The translations under genes were made by a program, and so were the position numbers. A stretch of 64,000 bases of DNA from Pseudothauera nasutitermitis (lineage in GTDB: Bacteria > Pseudomonadota > Gammaproteobacteria > Burkholderiales > Rhodocyclaceae). The notes below the pieces were generated by a model that was not told where the DNA came from, searched no databases, and saw only the letters and a program-made list of their open reading frames with translations. How positions within the stretch are numbered: the stretch's first letter is position 1; each line of letters starts with the position of its first letter. Positions 19,300-30,979 of the stretch are shown here, in pieces. The stretch is taken from assembly GCF_004801295.1 (NCBI RefSeq), contig NZ_SSOC01000004.1:1-64000 (forward strand). Reading direction: 5' to 3'.

Positions 19300-22996
<3,697 letters not shown>

Positions 22997-25924: not shown

Positions 25925-26926
25925 ATGCAGAACTCGCTTTTTCCCGATAGCGGACCAGGGGCGCCGCCCGTGGTCGAGGCCGCAGTGCCCGATCCGGCGC
26001 TGCGCAGCCTGGCCGGGGTGCTGCCGGCGCAGTTGCGCTTCGGCACCTCGTCGTGGAACTACCCTGGCTGGGCCGGCCTGGTGTGGAAGCGGGGCTACCC
26101 GGATGCGCTGCTGTCGCGCCACGGCCTGCCGGCGTATGCGCAACATCCGCTGTTTTGCACGGTCGGCCTCGACCGCAGTTTCTACCGGCCGCTGAGCGCT
26201 GCCCAGTTCGCCGCCTACGCGGCGCAGGTGCCGGCGGATTTCCGCTTCGTGGTGAAGGCGCCGAACCGGGTGACCGATGCGCTGCTGCGCGACGAATCCG
26301 GACGAGGCCGGCAACCCAATCCGGACTTTCTGGCCGCCGGCCCGGCCGTACGCGATTTCGTCGAGCCTGCGCTGGCCGGCCTGGGAGACAAGCTCGGCGC
26401 GCTGGTATTCCAGATCAGCCCGCTGCCGCCGGCGTGGCTGGCGCGCATCCCGGAACTGGTCGGGCGTCTGCATGCCATGCTGGCGGCCATCCCCGCGCTG
26501 CGCGGGGCCGCGCCCGACGGCGTGGTGGCGGTGGAGGTACGCGATCCGCAGTGGCTCGTACCGGCATTCACGCAGGCGCTGCGCGACGGTGGCGCAACCT
26601 ATTGCATGGGCCTGCACGCCAAGATGCCGCGCATCACCGAACAGCTCCCCATCCTGCGCGCGTTGTGGCCGGGGCCGCTGGTGTGCCGCTGGAACCTCAA
26701 CCCGCTGCACGGCGCCTTCGGCTACGAGCAGGCGCGTCGCCAGTATGCGCCCTACGACCGGCTGCAGGACCCGGACCCGGATACCCGCGCCGCGCTGGCG
26801 CGAGTGATCGCGGGCACCGTCGGCGCCGGCCAGAATGCCTTCGTGACCCTCAGCAACAAGTCCGAGGGCAGCGCGCCGCTGTCGGTACGGGCATTGGCCG
26901 AGGCCGTCCGCGATCAATTGCGTTGA
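25925..26926 (+). CDS. DUF72 (YecE-like) family protein
   Basis: A 333-residue protein of the DUF72 family, predicted to adopt a TIM-barrel fold; no function is established. Typical segments are present: RFGTSSWNYPGWAG near the start, LDRSFYRPLSAAQF, FRFVVKAPNRVTD, VAVEVRDPQWL and, at the end, NAFVTLSNKSEGSAPLSV. ATG 25925 was chosen as the first start of the conserved frame. It stands alone in the plus orientation after a 216-bp gap in which no structure was seen, and converges on the EndoQ-UvrD fusion gene. Confidence 0.85.
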   Translation: MQNSLFPDSGPGAPPVVEAAVPDPALRSLAGVLPAQLRFGTSSWNYPGWAGLVWKRGYPDALLSRHGLPAYAQHPLFCTVGLDRSFYRPLSAAQFAAYAAQVPADFRFVVKAPNRVTDALLRDESGRGRQPNPDFLAAGPAVRDFVEPALAGLGDKLGALVFQISPLPPAWLARIPELVGRLHAMLAAIPALRGAAPDGVVAVEVRDPQWLVPAFTQALRDGGATYCMGLHAKMPRITEQLPILRALWPGPLVCRWNLNPLHGAFGYEQARRQYAPYDRLQDPDPDTRAALARVIAGTVGAGQNAFVTLSNKSEGSAPLSVRALAEAVRDQLR

Positions 26927-26954: not shown

Positions 26955-29900
26955 TCAGAACAAATCGAACTGCCGCTGCTCCGCGTTCACCTTGCGCGGC
27001 GGGGCGTTCTGCTCGCGCAGCAGCGCCGGGGCGATGTCCGCCAGGAAAGGCGAGGGCGGCAGCGCGCGTCGCTGGCCGCGCCATAGGCGTTCGCGGGCGC
27101 GGGTGAGGAACAGCCGGTCTCTGGCGCGGGTCAGGGCGACGTAGAACAGGCGGCGCTCCTCGGTCACCGTGCCATCGTCGACGCCGGCTTCGGCGTCCGC
27201 CGGGCCCCACGAAAAGGGCACCAGCCCGTCCTCGACGCCGGCCACGAACACCACCGCGAACTCCAGCCCCTTGGCGGCGTGCATGGTCAGCAGCGAGACG
27301 CGCTCGGCGCGCGCGTCCCAGAAATCGGCCTCGGTGCATAGCGCGACCCGTTCGCGCAGCTGCGCTTCGTCGGCATCCGCGGCCAGCGTGGCGAGCCAGC
27401 GGCGGGCCTCGGCGAGCGCGGCCTGGCCAGCGGCGTCCTGTTCCTGGCGCAACTGCTCGACGGCACTGGCGAGGCGCTCGGGCAGGGGCGTGGTCTGCTG
27501 CTGCGCGCCTTGCTGCGCCAGGGCATCGAGCAGGGCGTTCACCATGGCATGGCCGGCGATGGGCGCGGGCGAGCTTTTCCGGTGCGGGATGCCGGCGCGG
27601 TCGAAGGCCTCGCGCAGCGCGGCGGCCTGGGCGTCAGTGCGGTAGAGCACGGCGAAATCGGCGAAGCCGAGCGGCCGCCCGCCATCTGCGCCAGCCAGCG
27701 CGGCGCCCTTGCGGTTGGCGGCGAGCATGTCGTGGCCGCCAAGCAGGCTTTCGATGCTGGCGGCGATGAAATCCGCTTCCGCGCGCTCGTCCGGGGCGAC
27801 ATAGAGCGTGAGGGGTTCGCCCGGCGGCCGGGTGGCGTCGTCCGGCGTGCCGCTGCCGATCACTTGCGCGGCGGCGCCGACGATATGGGCGGTGGAGCGG
27901 TAGTTGCGGCCCAGGCGCAGCGTGCCGGCGCCAGGGAAGTCCTGCGCGAAGCGGGCGAACAGGGTGGCGTCGGCACCGCGGAAACCGTAGATCGCCTGGT
28001 TCGGGTCGCCGATTGCGCAGACGCTGGCGGCCGACGGGGCGAGCCGTTGCAGCAGGCGGTACTGGCGCGCGTCCAGATCCTGGAACTCGTCGACGCAGAT
28101 ATGGCGGAAGCGTTGCTGCCAGCGCGCCGCGACGGCCGGGTCGCGTTCCAGGATGTCCACCGGCAGGCTGACCAGATCGTCGAAATCCACCCAGTGGCCG
28201 GCCTCGCCGAGCCGGCGGCAGGCGGCCAGCGCGGCGGCGCTTTCCTCGTCGGCGGGCGGCGCACCGGTGCGCTTGGCGAGCGAGACGGCTTTCAGCAGGC
28301 GCGCGGCCTTGGCGTTGCTGACACCGAGTTCGGCGGCGAGCGCGGCGGCGCGCTCGCGCTCGTCGGCAATGCGGAAATCCGCCGGCAGGCCGGCCGCCGC
28401 GCCCTCTGCATGCAAAAAGGCGAGGCCGAGCGAGTGGAAGGTGTGGATCGCGCATTCCCCGGCATCGGCCGGCAGCAGCGCGGCGAGGCGCTCACGCAGT
28501 TCCCCGGCGGCGCGGCGGCTGAAGGTGATCGCCAGGCAGGCCGGCGCCGGTACGCCGCGTTCCAGGATCAGGTGGGCGAGGCGATGGGTCAGCATGCGCG
28601 TCTTGCCGGCGCCGGGGCCGGCGGTGACGATCAGCGGGCCGTCCACCCTTGCTGCGGCGCGGGCCTGATCGGCATCGAGCGCGGCGAGGATGCCGCTCAG
28701 GCCGGACGGCGCGGGCAAGGGCGGCGCGGCCGCCGGCGCCTCCGCCGCTGCTTCGGCCACCCTCAGCGCGGGGGTTGGCGCGGCCTGCGGAGGCAGCGGC
28801 AGGTCGAACAGCAGGTCGCCGTGGCTGAAGCGCTTCAGTTCGCCGTCCTCGAACAGGCGGATCACGCCGTATTCGCCGTCGTAGCCGGCCTCGCGGATCA
28901 CGCGGCCGGCGCGCAGCCGCTCCACCGCCTCGCCGAGCAGCGGGTGCACGCGGCGGATGTCGTCGATGGGTGTCTCGCACAGGATGGCGAAATCCGGCCC
29001 GAGCGCGGCCGACACGCGGTCGTACTCGCGCGTCACGCCCTGCGAGGCGACACCGCTGCCGAGGATCTCGGCGAGCATCTCGGGCAGCGGCACCAGGCTG
29101 GTCACCGTGCCGGCGGTCGGCGGCGGAATGCCGACCTTGCGGTCGGCCAGCGTTTCGATGCGGTGCGCGGTGCCGACCGTCACCGGCTTGCCGCACACGG
29201 GGCACAGCCCGCCGTGGGCCAGTGTCTCCTGCGGATCGAGGCGCACGTTGCAGGCGCGGTGGCCGTCCAGGTGGTACTTGCCTTCCTCGGGGAAGAATTC
29301 CACCGTGCCGACGTAGCCCTCGCCGGTCTCCAGCGCGCGGCGCATGGCGTAGTAGTTTGGCGTGCCGGCGAAGCGCGTGGCCTCGCGGCCGAGCTTGGAC
29401 GGCGAATGGGCGTCCGAGTTGGAAATCAGGCGGAAACCATCGAGCGAGGATATCCGCCAGTTCATCTCCGGGTCCGACGACAGGCCGGTTTCCACCGCGA
29501 AGATGTGCCCGGCCAGGTCGCCGTAGCATTCCTGGATCGAATCGAAGCCGGACTGCGAGCCGAGCGCGGCGAACCACGGCGTCCAGATGTGCGCCGGCAC
29601 CAGATAGGCCTGCGGCCCCGATTCCAGCACCACCTCCAGCAGGTCGCGCGAATCGAGGCCGAGGATGGGTCGTCCGTCGGAGGCGATATTGCCGATCCGC
29701 CCCAGGCTGGCGGCCAGCCGGTCGGCGGTGGCGAAATCGGGCGCATACACCACGTGGTGGATCTTGCGCGTGCGCTCACCCTTCTTGTAGATCGTCGAGA
29801 TCTCGGTGGAGAGCATGAAGCGCACCGGTGTACGGCAGCTCGGCGGCAGGGTCTTCAGGACTTCGGCCTCGATCTCCGGCCGCAAGGCGAACAGGCCGTC

Positions 29901-30080
29901 GCCGGTGGCCACCAGCTTGTCCTTCATCTCCGCCAGCCAGGCCGGATGGACGCAGTCGCCGGTGGCGACCACGGCGATGCCCTTGCGCGCCGCCCACCAG
30001 GCCAGATGCTCCAGGTCCAGGTCGCGGCTGGTGGCGCGGGAATGCTTGGAATGCACGTGCAGGTCGGCGTGAAACAACAT
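26955..30080 (-). CDS. EndoQ-like PHP nuclease fused to a UvrD-type helicase
   Basis: A 1041-residue fusion. Residues 1-435 resemble endonuclease Q, a PHP-domain nuclease that nicks DNA at deaminated bases: HADLHVHSKHS, ATGDCVHPAWL, STEIST, AHIWTPWFAALGSQSGFDS, ISNSDAHSPSKLG, and a Cys cluster (C277, CPVC at 293-296). After a Pro/Ala linker, residues 465-1030 form an SF1A helicase: P-loop TAGPGAGKT (486-494), VDEFQD (663-668), GDPNQAIYGFRGAD, LTMHAAKGLEF and VALTRARDRL. The last residues, QFDLF, match the bacterial beta-clamp-binding pentapeptide. The likely role is nicking at damaged bases coupled to unwinding; this is inference. The ATG at 30078-30080 begins the PHP motif directly. Confidence 0.88.
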   Translation of the reverse strand: MLFHADLHVHSKHSRATSRDLDLEHLAWWAARKGIAVVATGDCVHPAWLAEMKDKLVATGDGLFALRPEIEAEVLKTLPPSCRTPVRFMLSTEISTIYKKGERTRKIHHVVYAPDFATADRLAASLGRIGNIASDGRPILGLDSRDLLEVVLESGPQAYLVPAHIWTPWFAALGSQSGFDSIQECYGDLAGHIFAVETGLSSDPEMNWRISSLDGFRLISNSDAHSPSKLGREATRFAGTPNYYAMRRALETGEGYVGTVEFFPEEGKYHLDGHRACNVRLDPQETLAHGGLCPVCGKPVTVGTAHRIETLADRKVGIPPPTAGTVTSLVPLPEMLAEILGSGVASQGVTREYDRVSAALGPDFAILCETPIDDIRRVHPLLGEAVERLRAGRVIREAGYDGEYGVIRLFEDGELKRFSHGDLLFDLPLPPQAAPTPALRVAEAAAEAPAAAPPLPAPSGLSGILAALDADQARAAARVDGPLIVTAGPGAGKTRMLTHRLAHLILERGVPAPACLAITFSRRAAGELRERLAALLPADAGECAIHTFHSLGLAFLHAEGAAAGLPADFRIADERERAAALAAELGVSNAKAARLLKAVSLAKRTGAPPADEESAAALAACRRLGEAGHWVDFDDLVSLPVDILERDPAVAARWQQRFRHICVDEFQDLDARQYRLLQRLAPSAASVCAIGDPNQAIYGFRGADATLFARFAQDFPGAGTLRLGRNYRSTAHIVGAAAQVIGSGTPDDATRPPGEPLTLYVAPDERAEADFIAASIESLLGGHDMLAANRKGAALAGADGGRPLGFADFAVLYRTDAQAAALREAFDRAGIPHRKSSPAPIAGHAMVNALLDALAQQGAQQQTTPLPERLASAVEQLRQEQDAAGQAALAEARRWLATLAADADEAQLRERVALCTEADFWDARAERVSLLTMHAAKGLEFAVVFVAGVEDGLVPFSWGPADAEAGVDDGTVTEERRLFYVALTRARDRLFLTRARERLWRGQRRALPPSPFLADIAPALLREQNAPPRKVNAEQRQFDLF

Positions 30081-30181: not shown

Positions 30182-30979
30182 CTACGGCGCCTGCGGCCCC
30201 CTCATCCATCCCTGCCCGACCCGGAGCAGCACCCACATCACCAGCAGCGGCAGCACCAGGGTCTGCAGCAGAAAGACCACGATGATGCGCACCACATCGT
30301 CAACGATGCGGTCGGCGGTGTCCTTCAGCTTGCCGATGGCGGCTTTCAGGCGGTCCACCTGCTTGCCGATCTCCCACACGCCGGTGCCGCCCTCCTCGGC
30401 ATCGAGGCTGAGCAGGCCCTGGTCGACCTGCTCCAGACTGGCCTGGCGGGCCTGGTATTCGTCGGCCATGAAGGCATGGTAGGCGGCCTCGCTGCCCAGC
30501 GAGGCCAGCGGCACGATGAAGCGCACCAGCAGCAGGGCAACGAAGCCGCGCAGCAGCCAGCGCGAAGGCGGGCGGCCTTTCAGGACCAGCCAGGCCAGCC
30601 ACGCCGCCGCCACGCAGAGCACCAGGCTGACCGCCCAGGAGGCGCCGATCTTCATCAGCAGCAGCTGGGCGCCGAAGGCGATGCTGGCCGCCAGCATCAG
30701 CGTGGAGAACTGTTCGACGAGCTGGTTGAGCGGGTCCAGCACCTGGCCCGGGGTCAGGGTGATGCCCACCACCATGCTGCCGCTCACCTCGGTACCCTGC
30801 ACCACGGAGATCACCGCGTTGAGCGCGCGCGCGGTGGCGAAGCTGGCCACGGCGCGCTTCAGGCCTTCTTCTGCATAGCGTTCGGCGAGCTGGTCGAGCG
30901 GCTTCAGCCAGGCCAGCGCGGCAACCGCCAGCAGTACCGCGACCAGGGCGATGCGGCGGGGAAGAGTGGCTGCGGTCAT
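30182..30979 (-). CDS. Membrane protein of unknown function
   Basis: A 265-residue protein that I do not recognise. A basic N-terminus leads into a hydrophobic segment (IALVAVLLAVAALAWL), then a soluble stretch with PLDQLAERYAEEGLKRAVASFATARALN, several further membrane helices in the middle, an amphipathic helical stretch with a regular K/R-rich pattern (DRLKAAIGKLKDTADRIVDD), and a final helix. This suggests a polytopic inner-membrane protein with a periplasmic or cytoplasmic coiled segment. It lies 101 bp downstream of the EndoQ-UvrD start in the same orientation and is probably expressed separately. Confidence 0.7.
   Translation of the reverse strand: MTAATLPRRIALVAVLLAVAALAWLKPLDQLAERYAEEGLKRAVASFATARALNAVISVVQGTEVSGSMVVGITLTPGQVLDPLNQLVEQFSTLMLAASIAFGAQLLLMKIGASWAVSLVLCVAAAWLAWLVLKGRPPSRWLLRGFVALLLVRFIVPLASLGSEAAYHAFMADEYQARQASLEQVDQGLLSLDAEEGGTGVWEIGKQVDRLKAAIGKLKDTADRIVDDVVRIIVVFLLQTLVLPLLVMWVLLRVGQGWMRGPQAP

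Follow-up and report, generated by a model that had tools for sequence, protein, structure and literature searches.

The window analysed here, a stretch of 64,000 nucleotides from contig NZ_SSOC01000004.1 of Pseudothauera nasutitermitis, carries on its minus strand an open reading frame (ORF) of 1041 residues (30080..26955) that begins with ATG, has no internal stop and joins a nuclease resembling endonuclease Q (EndoQ) to an SF1A helicase. That one protein combines these two halves had been proposed from the letters of the window alone (the original prediction), and the uninterrupted frame, the homology and the predicted fold all agree with it. The gene and its modules are laid out as follows:

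26955..30080, minus strand: EndoQ-helicase fusion gene, 1041 residues, ATG start, stop codon at 26955-26957
28839..30080, minus strand: EndoQ module, residues 1-414, made up of PHP catalytic domain, zinc ribbon and C-terminal EndoQ domain (phmmer, TIGR00375, Foldseek)
29190..29273, minus strand: zinc ribbon, ligand positions H274, C277, C293 and C296 (alignment; the first Cys of PfuEndoQ is replaced by His)
28692..28838, minus strand: Ala/Pro-rich flexible linker, residues 415-463 (alignment; predicted local distance difference test, pLDDT, below 50 at residues 422-452 of the model)
27003..28691, minus strand: SF1A helicase module, residues 464-1026 (PF00580 and PF13361; PcrA, UvrD and Rep chains of the PDB; Foldseek)
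27300..27572, minus strand: reduced 2B insert, residues 837-927, between motifs IV and V (motif IV-V spans; no G-I-G signature)
26958..26972, minus strand: C-terminal beta-clamp-binding-type motif QFDLF, residues 1037-1041 (tail pattern counts; QLxLF consensus)

This architecture is not a product of chance, as it is kept in 66 aligned fusions (65 complete fusions from the best 80 loci described below plus the window protein, with L059 and L093 excluded along with ORFs truncated by a contig end), and the tabulated positions are near-invariant. All 25 of these positions are invariant among the 66 except H8 (64/66) and zinc position 274 (65/66), while the aligned linker varies from 42 to 147 residues. 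An AlphaFold model of the window protein, built on an alignment of 54 of the 66 sequences, has a pLDDT of 86.5 and a predicted template modelling score (pTM) of 0.59.

As judged by phmmer and Foldseek rather than by a tree, the N-terminal half resembles EndoQ, as predicted, and does not group with another PHP family. When the first 460 residues were compared with all PDB chains (phmmer, E<=0.01), three distinct sequences were matched, all of them EndoQ, and no other PHP chain was found. The best alignment pairs residues 2-412 with residues 2-385 of PfuEndoQ 5zb8 (E 8e-45; 7k30 was also matched), identity to PfuEndoQ being about 30%, and Foldseek places the model on 5zb8 with a template modelling (TM) score of 0.85-0.86, normalised to the target. 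NCBIfam model TIGR00375 matches residues 99-407 with 136.5 bits, below its cut-off of 326.6, and on this footing the half is filed as a putative divergent bacterial EndoQ subfamily outside the TIGR00375 equivalog group. In Pfam, none of the PHP families passes its threshold on this half (only PHP_C appears, with 15.7 bits vs 21.3), and this is probably the reason that proteins of this kind would take their name only from the helicase half.

The catalytic residues are retained. In PfuEndoQ, E76A, H84A and H139A each abolish activity, and H139, G169 and S171 block normal bases (PMC8307549; this and the other papers cited by PMC accession are represented here by excerpts). PfuEndoQ E76, H84, H139, G169 and S171 align with E93, H108, H164, G199 and S201 of the window protein, all identical in 86/86 fused and 13/13 stand-alone bacterial rows (two rows cut by contig ends left out), as are D6, H10, D42, E197, D223 and H225. 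Outside the zinc ribbon, 12/12 tabulated positions are identical between the window protein and PfuEndoQ. The ribbon itself is present after the PHP domain as His-Cys-Cys-Cys, vs four Cys in PfuEndoQ; its first ligand is His in 85/86 fused and 13/13 stand-alone bacterial rows, and its last Cys is G in one of the 86 fused rows. Could the half nevertheless have drifted to another lesion, such as oxidised pyrimidines or abasic (AP) sites only, leaving an enzyme that nicks and unwinds but does not serve deaminated bases? The modest identity to PfuEndoQ, the TIGR00375 score, the His ligand and the UDG genes found in most genomes with a fusion (see below) would all suit such a drift, and the residues compared do not include those by which PfuEndoQ forms hydrogen bonds with uracil or hypoxanthine; the identity of base-gate residues G199, S201 and H164 in all 99 bacterial rows counted speaks against it, and we regard it as distinctly improbable.

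The C-terminal half matches Pfam PF00580 at residues 469-716 and PF13361 at 910-995, its PDB matches are PcrA, UvrD and Rep chains, and Foldseek aligns its core to solved UvrD and PcrA structures (TM up to 0.77 for UvrD, normalised to the target). Nine core residues (K493, D664, E665, Q695, R701, R728, H934, K937 and R985) are identical in 66/66 fusions. The metal and helicase motif residues, announced as intact from the window alone, are thus kept in the alignments, as are the base-gate residues. The "complete SF1A helicase" of the original prediction stands as to its class and its core motifs, but not as to completeness: between motifs IV and V, its 2B insert reaches only about half of the normal size. 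The motif IV-V span is 104-162 residues (median 118) in 66/66 fusions, 121 in the window protein and 109 in the helicases of two split loci. By alignment it is 192-217 residues in 14/15 other UvrD-type helicases and 129 in one (L141); the 14 include the window genome's two other UvrD/Rep-type helicases, with 203 and 204, and pattern-based spacing gives 205-206 in four distinct stand-alone helicases. The G-I-G signature, which contacts duplex DNA (PMC13238157), was not found in the 2B insert of the window protein by a simple window search, and the same search gave a G-I-G-like signature in 1/66 fusions vs 6/17 other helicases, including both of the window genome, which makes it a weak discriminator. 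With its reduced 2B and rare G-I-G, the helicase half is not classed with UvrD, PcrA or Rep on sequence criteria. The window genome also has UvrD/Rep-type helicases of 693 and 779 residues, so it has the fusion in addition to the usual set. L141 (L141:1162-3237, minus strand) is a separate 692-residue helicase of a Streptosporangium genome whose EndoQ (L121) is unfused; in the helicase tree it sits apart from the fused helicases and has a long branch.

QLxLF is the beta-clamp-binding consensus, and the window protein ends in a motif of this type, QFDLF. The pattern Q[LF]x[LF][FL] lies in the last 12 residues of 56/80 complete fused ORFs (window and L059 included) and occurs elsewhere in these proteins 4 times in 85,561 residues. 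Within the last 16 residues, and without the window and L059, this strict pattern is found in 56/78 complete fusions and a general one, Qxx[LFM][FLIVMWN], in 74/78; among 691 neighbouring mechanically derived ORFs the strict pattern occurs once and the general one seven times. A clamp-type tail was found at none of 16 other UvrD-type C-termini and, general pattern included, at none of 13 stand-alone EndoQs. At split loci L071 and L096 the tail sits on the helicase ORF just downstream of the EndoQ ORF. Archaeal EndoQ binds PCNA via a C-terminal PIP box, and PCNA stimulates its nicking (PMC4858679). We read the clamp-type tail as a putative third module of the fusion protein, beyond nuclease and helicase, and the QFDLF of the window protein should dock it on the replication clamp.

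A search for this architecture across genomes, suggested earlier as a check, reveals a widespread family rather than a one-off, with the fusion recurring in many bacterial groups. At least 589 stretches of genome contigs encode relatives; the best 80 of them, ranked by similarity to the window protein and hence biased towards fusions, comprise 73 fused loci, six unfused and one cut. The fused loci, many of which come from metagenome-assembled genomes, belong to 10 phyla (Pseudomonadota, Actinomycetota, Melainabacteria, Elusimicrobiota, Planctomycetota, Verrucomicrobiota, Acidobacteriota, Myxococcota, Poribacteria and Binatota), with an eleventh, Chloroflexota, represented only by L124, in which the helicase half breaks off after 42 matching residues. 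Searched with TIGR00375, the window's own family has matches in 5/199 genomes, all in open frames of 1044-1179 residues, and four own-family copies besides that of the window were confirmed as fusions. The own class has matches in 2/369 genomes (own genome included) and the own phylum in 18/398. These 18 genomes hold ten frames of more than 1000 residues (seven confirmed fusions, that of the window, and two, G632 and G687, judged by frame length alone), seven stand-alone EndoQs and one frame cut by a contig end.

Some loci depart from the fused arrangement. In two Gastranaerophilales loci (L071:5998-8927 and L096:5998-8926), the ORFs for EndoQ and for the compact helicase follow one another with a slight overlap, an arrangement that either a natural split or a frameshift could explain. 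A third (L059:5947-8909) has its helicase half spread over two frames and looks like a broken copy or a sequencing error. In Devosia nitrariae (L047:5935-7332), an EndoQ 75% identical to that of the window has no helicase half beside it, and the best helicase match of that genome is a protein of 802 residues with an ordinary motif IV-V span.

Both halves appear to share one history. The EndoQ tree has 102 rows, and in it a clade made of the fused rows and six unfused ones (SH-aLRT, the Shimodaira-Hasegawa-like approximate likelihood ratio test, 85) excludes seven stand-alone EndoQs of proteobacteria; a 60-row tree gives the same split (SH-aLRT 87). A strict clade of fused rows was rejected by the approximately unbiased (AU) test (p-AU 2e-39), as six members that are stand-alone or split fall among the fused rows. 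One fusion and six later losses or splits would make up the 7 changes counted on this tree, although such counts alone cannot tell gain from loss and the rooting is unsure, the branch to the PfuEndoQ outgroup being extremely long and those of L030 and L031 long too. In the helicase tree (46 rows of the fused kind, thinned), the fused helicases and two split ones (L151 and L152) lie on one side of a single branch and 15 other UvrD-type helicases on the other (SH-aLRT 99), with one change between the fused and other states. Distances for the EndoQ and helicase halves are strongly correlated (Mantel r 0.906, reached in 0/1000 permutations). These results fit one fusion followed by joint inheritance and transfer, with a few later losses or splits. 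The window copy groups with alphaproteobacterial copies in the EndoQ tree, and its lineage probably acquired the fusion gene by transfer.

Genome content was compared in 32 chosen genomes. UDG-superfamily genes are present in 11/13 fused genomes (all but G653 and G583), in 13/13 EndoQ-less genomes and in 6/6 with an unfused EndoQ, and a role of the fusion as UDG replacement was rejected on the count for fused genomes. EndoV was found in 0/13 fused, 0/6 unfused-EndoQ and 2/13 EndoQ-less genomes, and was not found in the window genome. In the phylum sample EndoV occurs in 43/398 genomes and in 0/18 of those bearing EndoQ (hypergeometric p about 0.12), a possible avoidance between EndoQ and EndoV. 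The absence of EndoV from the window genome is suggestive only; replacement of EndoV by the fusion is not supported, the avoidance being non-significant and confounded by taxonomy.

Around the gene, no conserved neighbourhood was found in 6-kb flanks: the largest cluster of neighbours covers 7/92 loci (ORFs of at least 130 residues, plus part of the window). Nor were there matches in plasmids, phages or viral contigs. No LexA-like box was found near the gene, the window having 6 matches vs 15 expected, and the window has no Rfam match. About 100 bases upstream of the fusion gene, in the same direction, lies a membrane-protein-like ORF (30182-30979, minus strand), a possible operon partner in the window genome. 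A convergent neighbouring ORF (25925-26926, plus strand) resembles a DUF72/YecE-type protein, and the ORF at 20498-22996 looks like gyrB.

Gabija combines a nuclease with a compact UvrD-like helicase, its GajA being a different nuclease encoded by a separate gene. A comparable nuclease-helicase directed against phage DNA with uracil or other altered bases could be envisaged here, since the helicase half matches the PADLOC GajB models (best 243 bits) and a possible antiviral role of bacterial EndoQ has been mentioned (PMC8307549). GajB is, however, not the best SF1A family for this half, which scores 338 bits on the NCBIfam PcrA model; the absence of a conserved neighbourhood and of plasmid, phage or viral-contig matches also argues against defence, as would the conserved clamp-type tail, which points to chromosome maintenance. 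No GajA-like gene was seen by eye among the window neighbours, where no profile scan for defence genes was made. Altogether, an anti-phage function seems very unlikely. The GajB scores mean that defence finders could miscall the gene as Gabija (window 28691-26958, minus strand).

We think it somewhat probable that the fusion protein is a single-chain excision-repair enzyme that docks on the clamp and acts on deaminated or abasic DNA. By homology, its EndoQ module would flip the lesion, whether uracil, hypoxanthine or an abasic nucleotide, into its pocket and cut the bond just 5' of it, leaving a 3'-OH and a 5'-phosphate, as EndoQ does (PMC4357722). The tethered SF1A motor, for which the EndoQ module would supply the targeting, would then load onto the intact strand at the nick, travelling 3'-5' towards the lesion side and peeling off the 5' end of the opposite strand that carries the lesion. 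The QLxLF-type tail would keep the enzyme on the beta clamp while a clamp-bound polymerase extends the 3'-OH behind it, with flap removal and then ligation as the predicted last steps. Deletion of 2B activates the Rep monomer, and RepD, MutL and PriC activate SF1A monomers (PMC13238157); with its reduced 2B, the motor should need neither dimerisation nor MutL-type activation and should be active as a monomer, like 2B-deleted Rep. For the steps after EndoQ, strand displacement with Fen1, or removal by helicase activity after EndoQ and EndoV cuts, have been put forward as possibilities (PMC4357722). The fuller proposal, a widespread one-chain pathway in which a beta-clamp-tethered enzyme locates the deaminated base, makes a nick next to it and uses its own helicase, released from the 2B brake, to drive strand displacement, falls a little short of an even chance in our estimation. 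As to the nick-then-unwind pathway in one protein originally envisaged, anatomy and co-inheritance of the halves support it, its activity being predicted, but its helicase is a 2B-reduced one.

The order of events could also be reversed, the helicase opening the duplex at or near the clamp first, EndoQ then scanning the exposed strand and the nick being the end point. The cleavage pattern of one archaeal EndoQ is similar on single- and double-stranded DNA (PMC6202378), and the tail suggests a location at replication sites. Cutting an opened template strand would, however, break it; AP cutting was not detected in single-stranded DNA (PMC6202378), and a 3'-5' motor with a 5'-side nick would fit strand displacement better. 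We consider this order unlikely.

Several observations weigh against a clamp-docked nick-then-unwind enzyme. The placement of the domains relative to each other is uncertain in the model, as the pTM indicates, with a low-confidence linker joining the two modules. The gene is patchy even within its own family and class, and so is not essential. For four of the six unfused loci inside the fused clade, the flanks retrieved contain no match to the helicase half, so the nuclease can persist on its own. A reduced 2B also occurs outside the fusion, in L141, which has no clamp-type tail. UDG would make the pathway redundant for uracil in most fused genomes, where the fusion would back up UDG or serve hypoxanthine and AP sites. 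The TIGR00375 score suggests that the specificity of the N-terminal half may have drifted, and H8 is Q in 2/86 fused rows. As for the tail, 4/78 fusions fail even the general pattern, and stand-alone Bacillus and Desulfovibrio EndoQs also have beta-clamp motifs (PMC4858679), so that it is not exclusive to fusions.

Compared with known systems, the fusion has in common with Endonuclease Q (PfuEndoQ 5zb8/7k30, TkoEndoQ, and those of M. acetivorans and B. pumilus) the fold, the catalytic metal ligands, the base gate, the zinc ribbon and the C-terminal EndoQ domain, as well as a terminal clamp-binding motif, which is a PIP box in archaea (PMC4858679). Endonuclease Q stands alone (the PfuEndoQ PDB chain has 400 residues), whereas the fusion has a helicase between nuclease and clamp-type motif; this motif belongs to the beta-clamp type, and His serves as one of the zinc ligands. 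With UvrD, PcrA and Rep it shares the core motif residues, and it differs by its half-size 2B, its lack of G-I-G, its own side of the branch in the helicase tree and the fused EndoQ. RepD and MutL act at the nick and direct PcrA and UvrD, and to our knowledge the EndoQ half is not homologous to either. In RepD-PcrA and MutL-UvrD, likewise, the nick is made or marked by a partner, which also switches on the helicase monomer (PMC13238157 for the activation), but the fusion has partner and motor in one chain, and its nick is predicted to be lesion-specific.

EndoQ has been described as mainly archaeal and limited in bacteria, with the step after its nick left as proposals (PMC4357722, PMC6202378). 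No description of an EndoQ-helicase fusion or of its tail was found in the open-licence PMC literature searched, in line with the earlier remark that no characterised example was known, and neither is described in the excerpts of PMC11354406, PMC6202378, PMC4357722, PMC8307549, PMC13238157, PMC3820547 and PMC4858679. A fused family in 10 or 11 phyla, with helicase and clamp-type tail on one chain, suggests both the downstream step and the partner, and both are testable with one purified protein. It would offer a natural SF1A helicase in which about half of the 2B regulatory subdomain is gone and a lesion-recognising nuclease is in control. If the proposed pathway is true, it would be for bacteria what the EndoQ-PCNA pathway is for archaea, and would show which step comes after the nick made by EndoQ.

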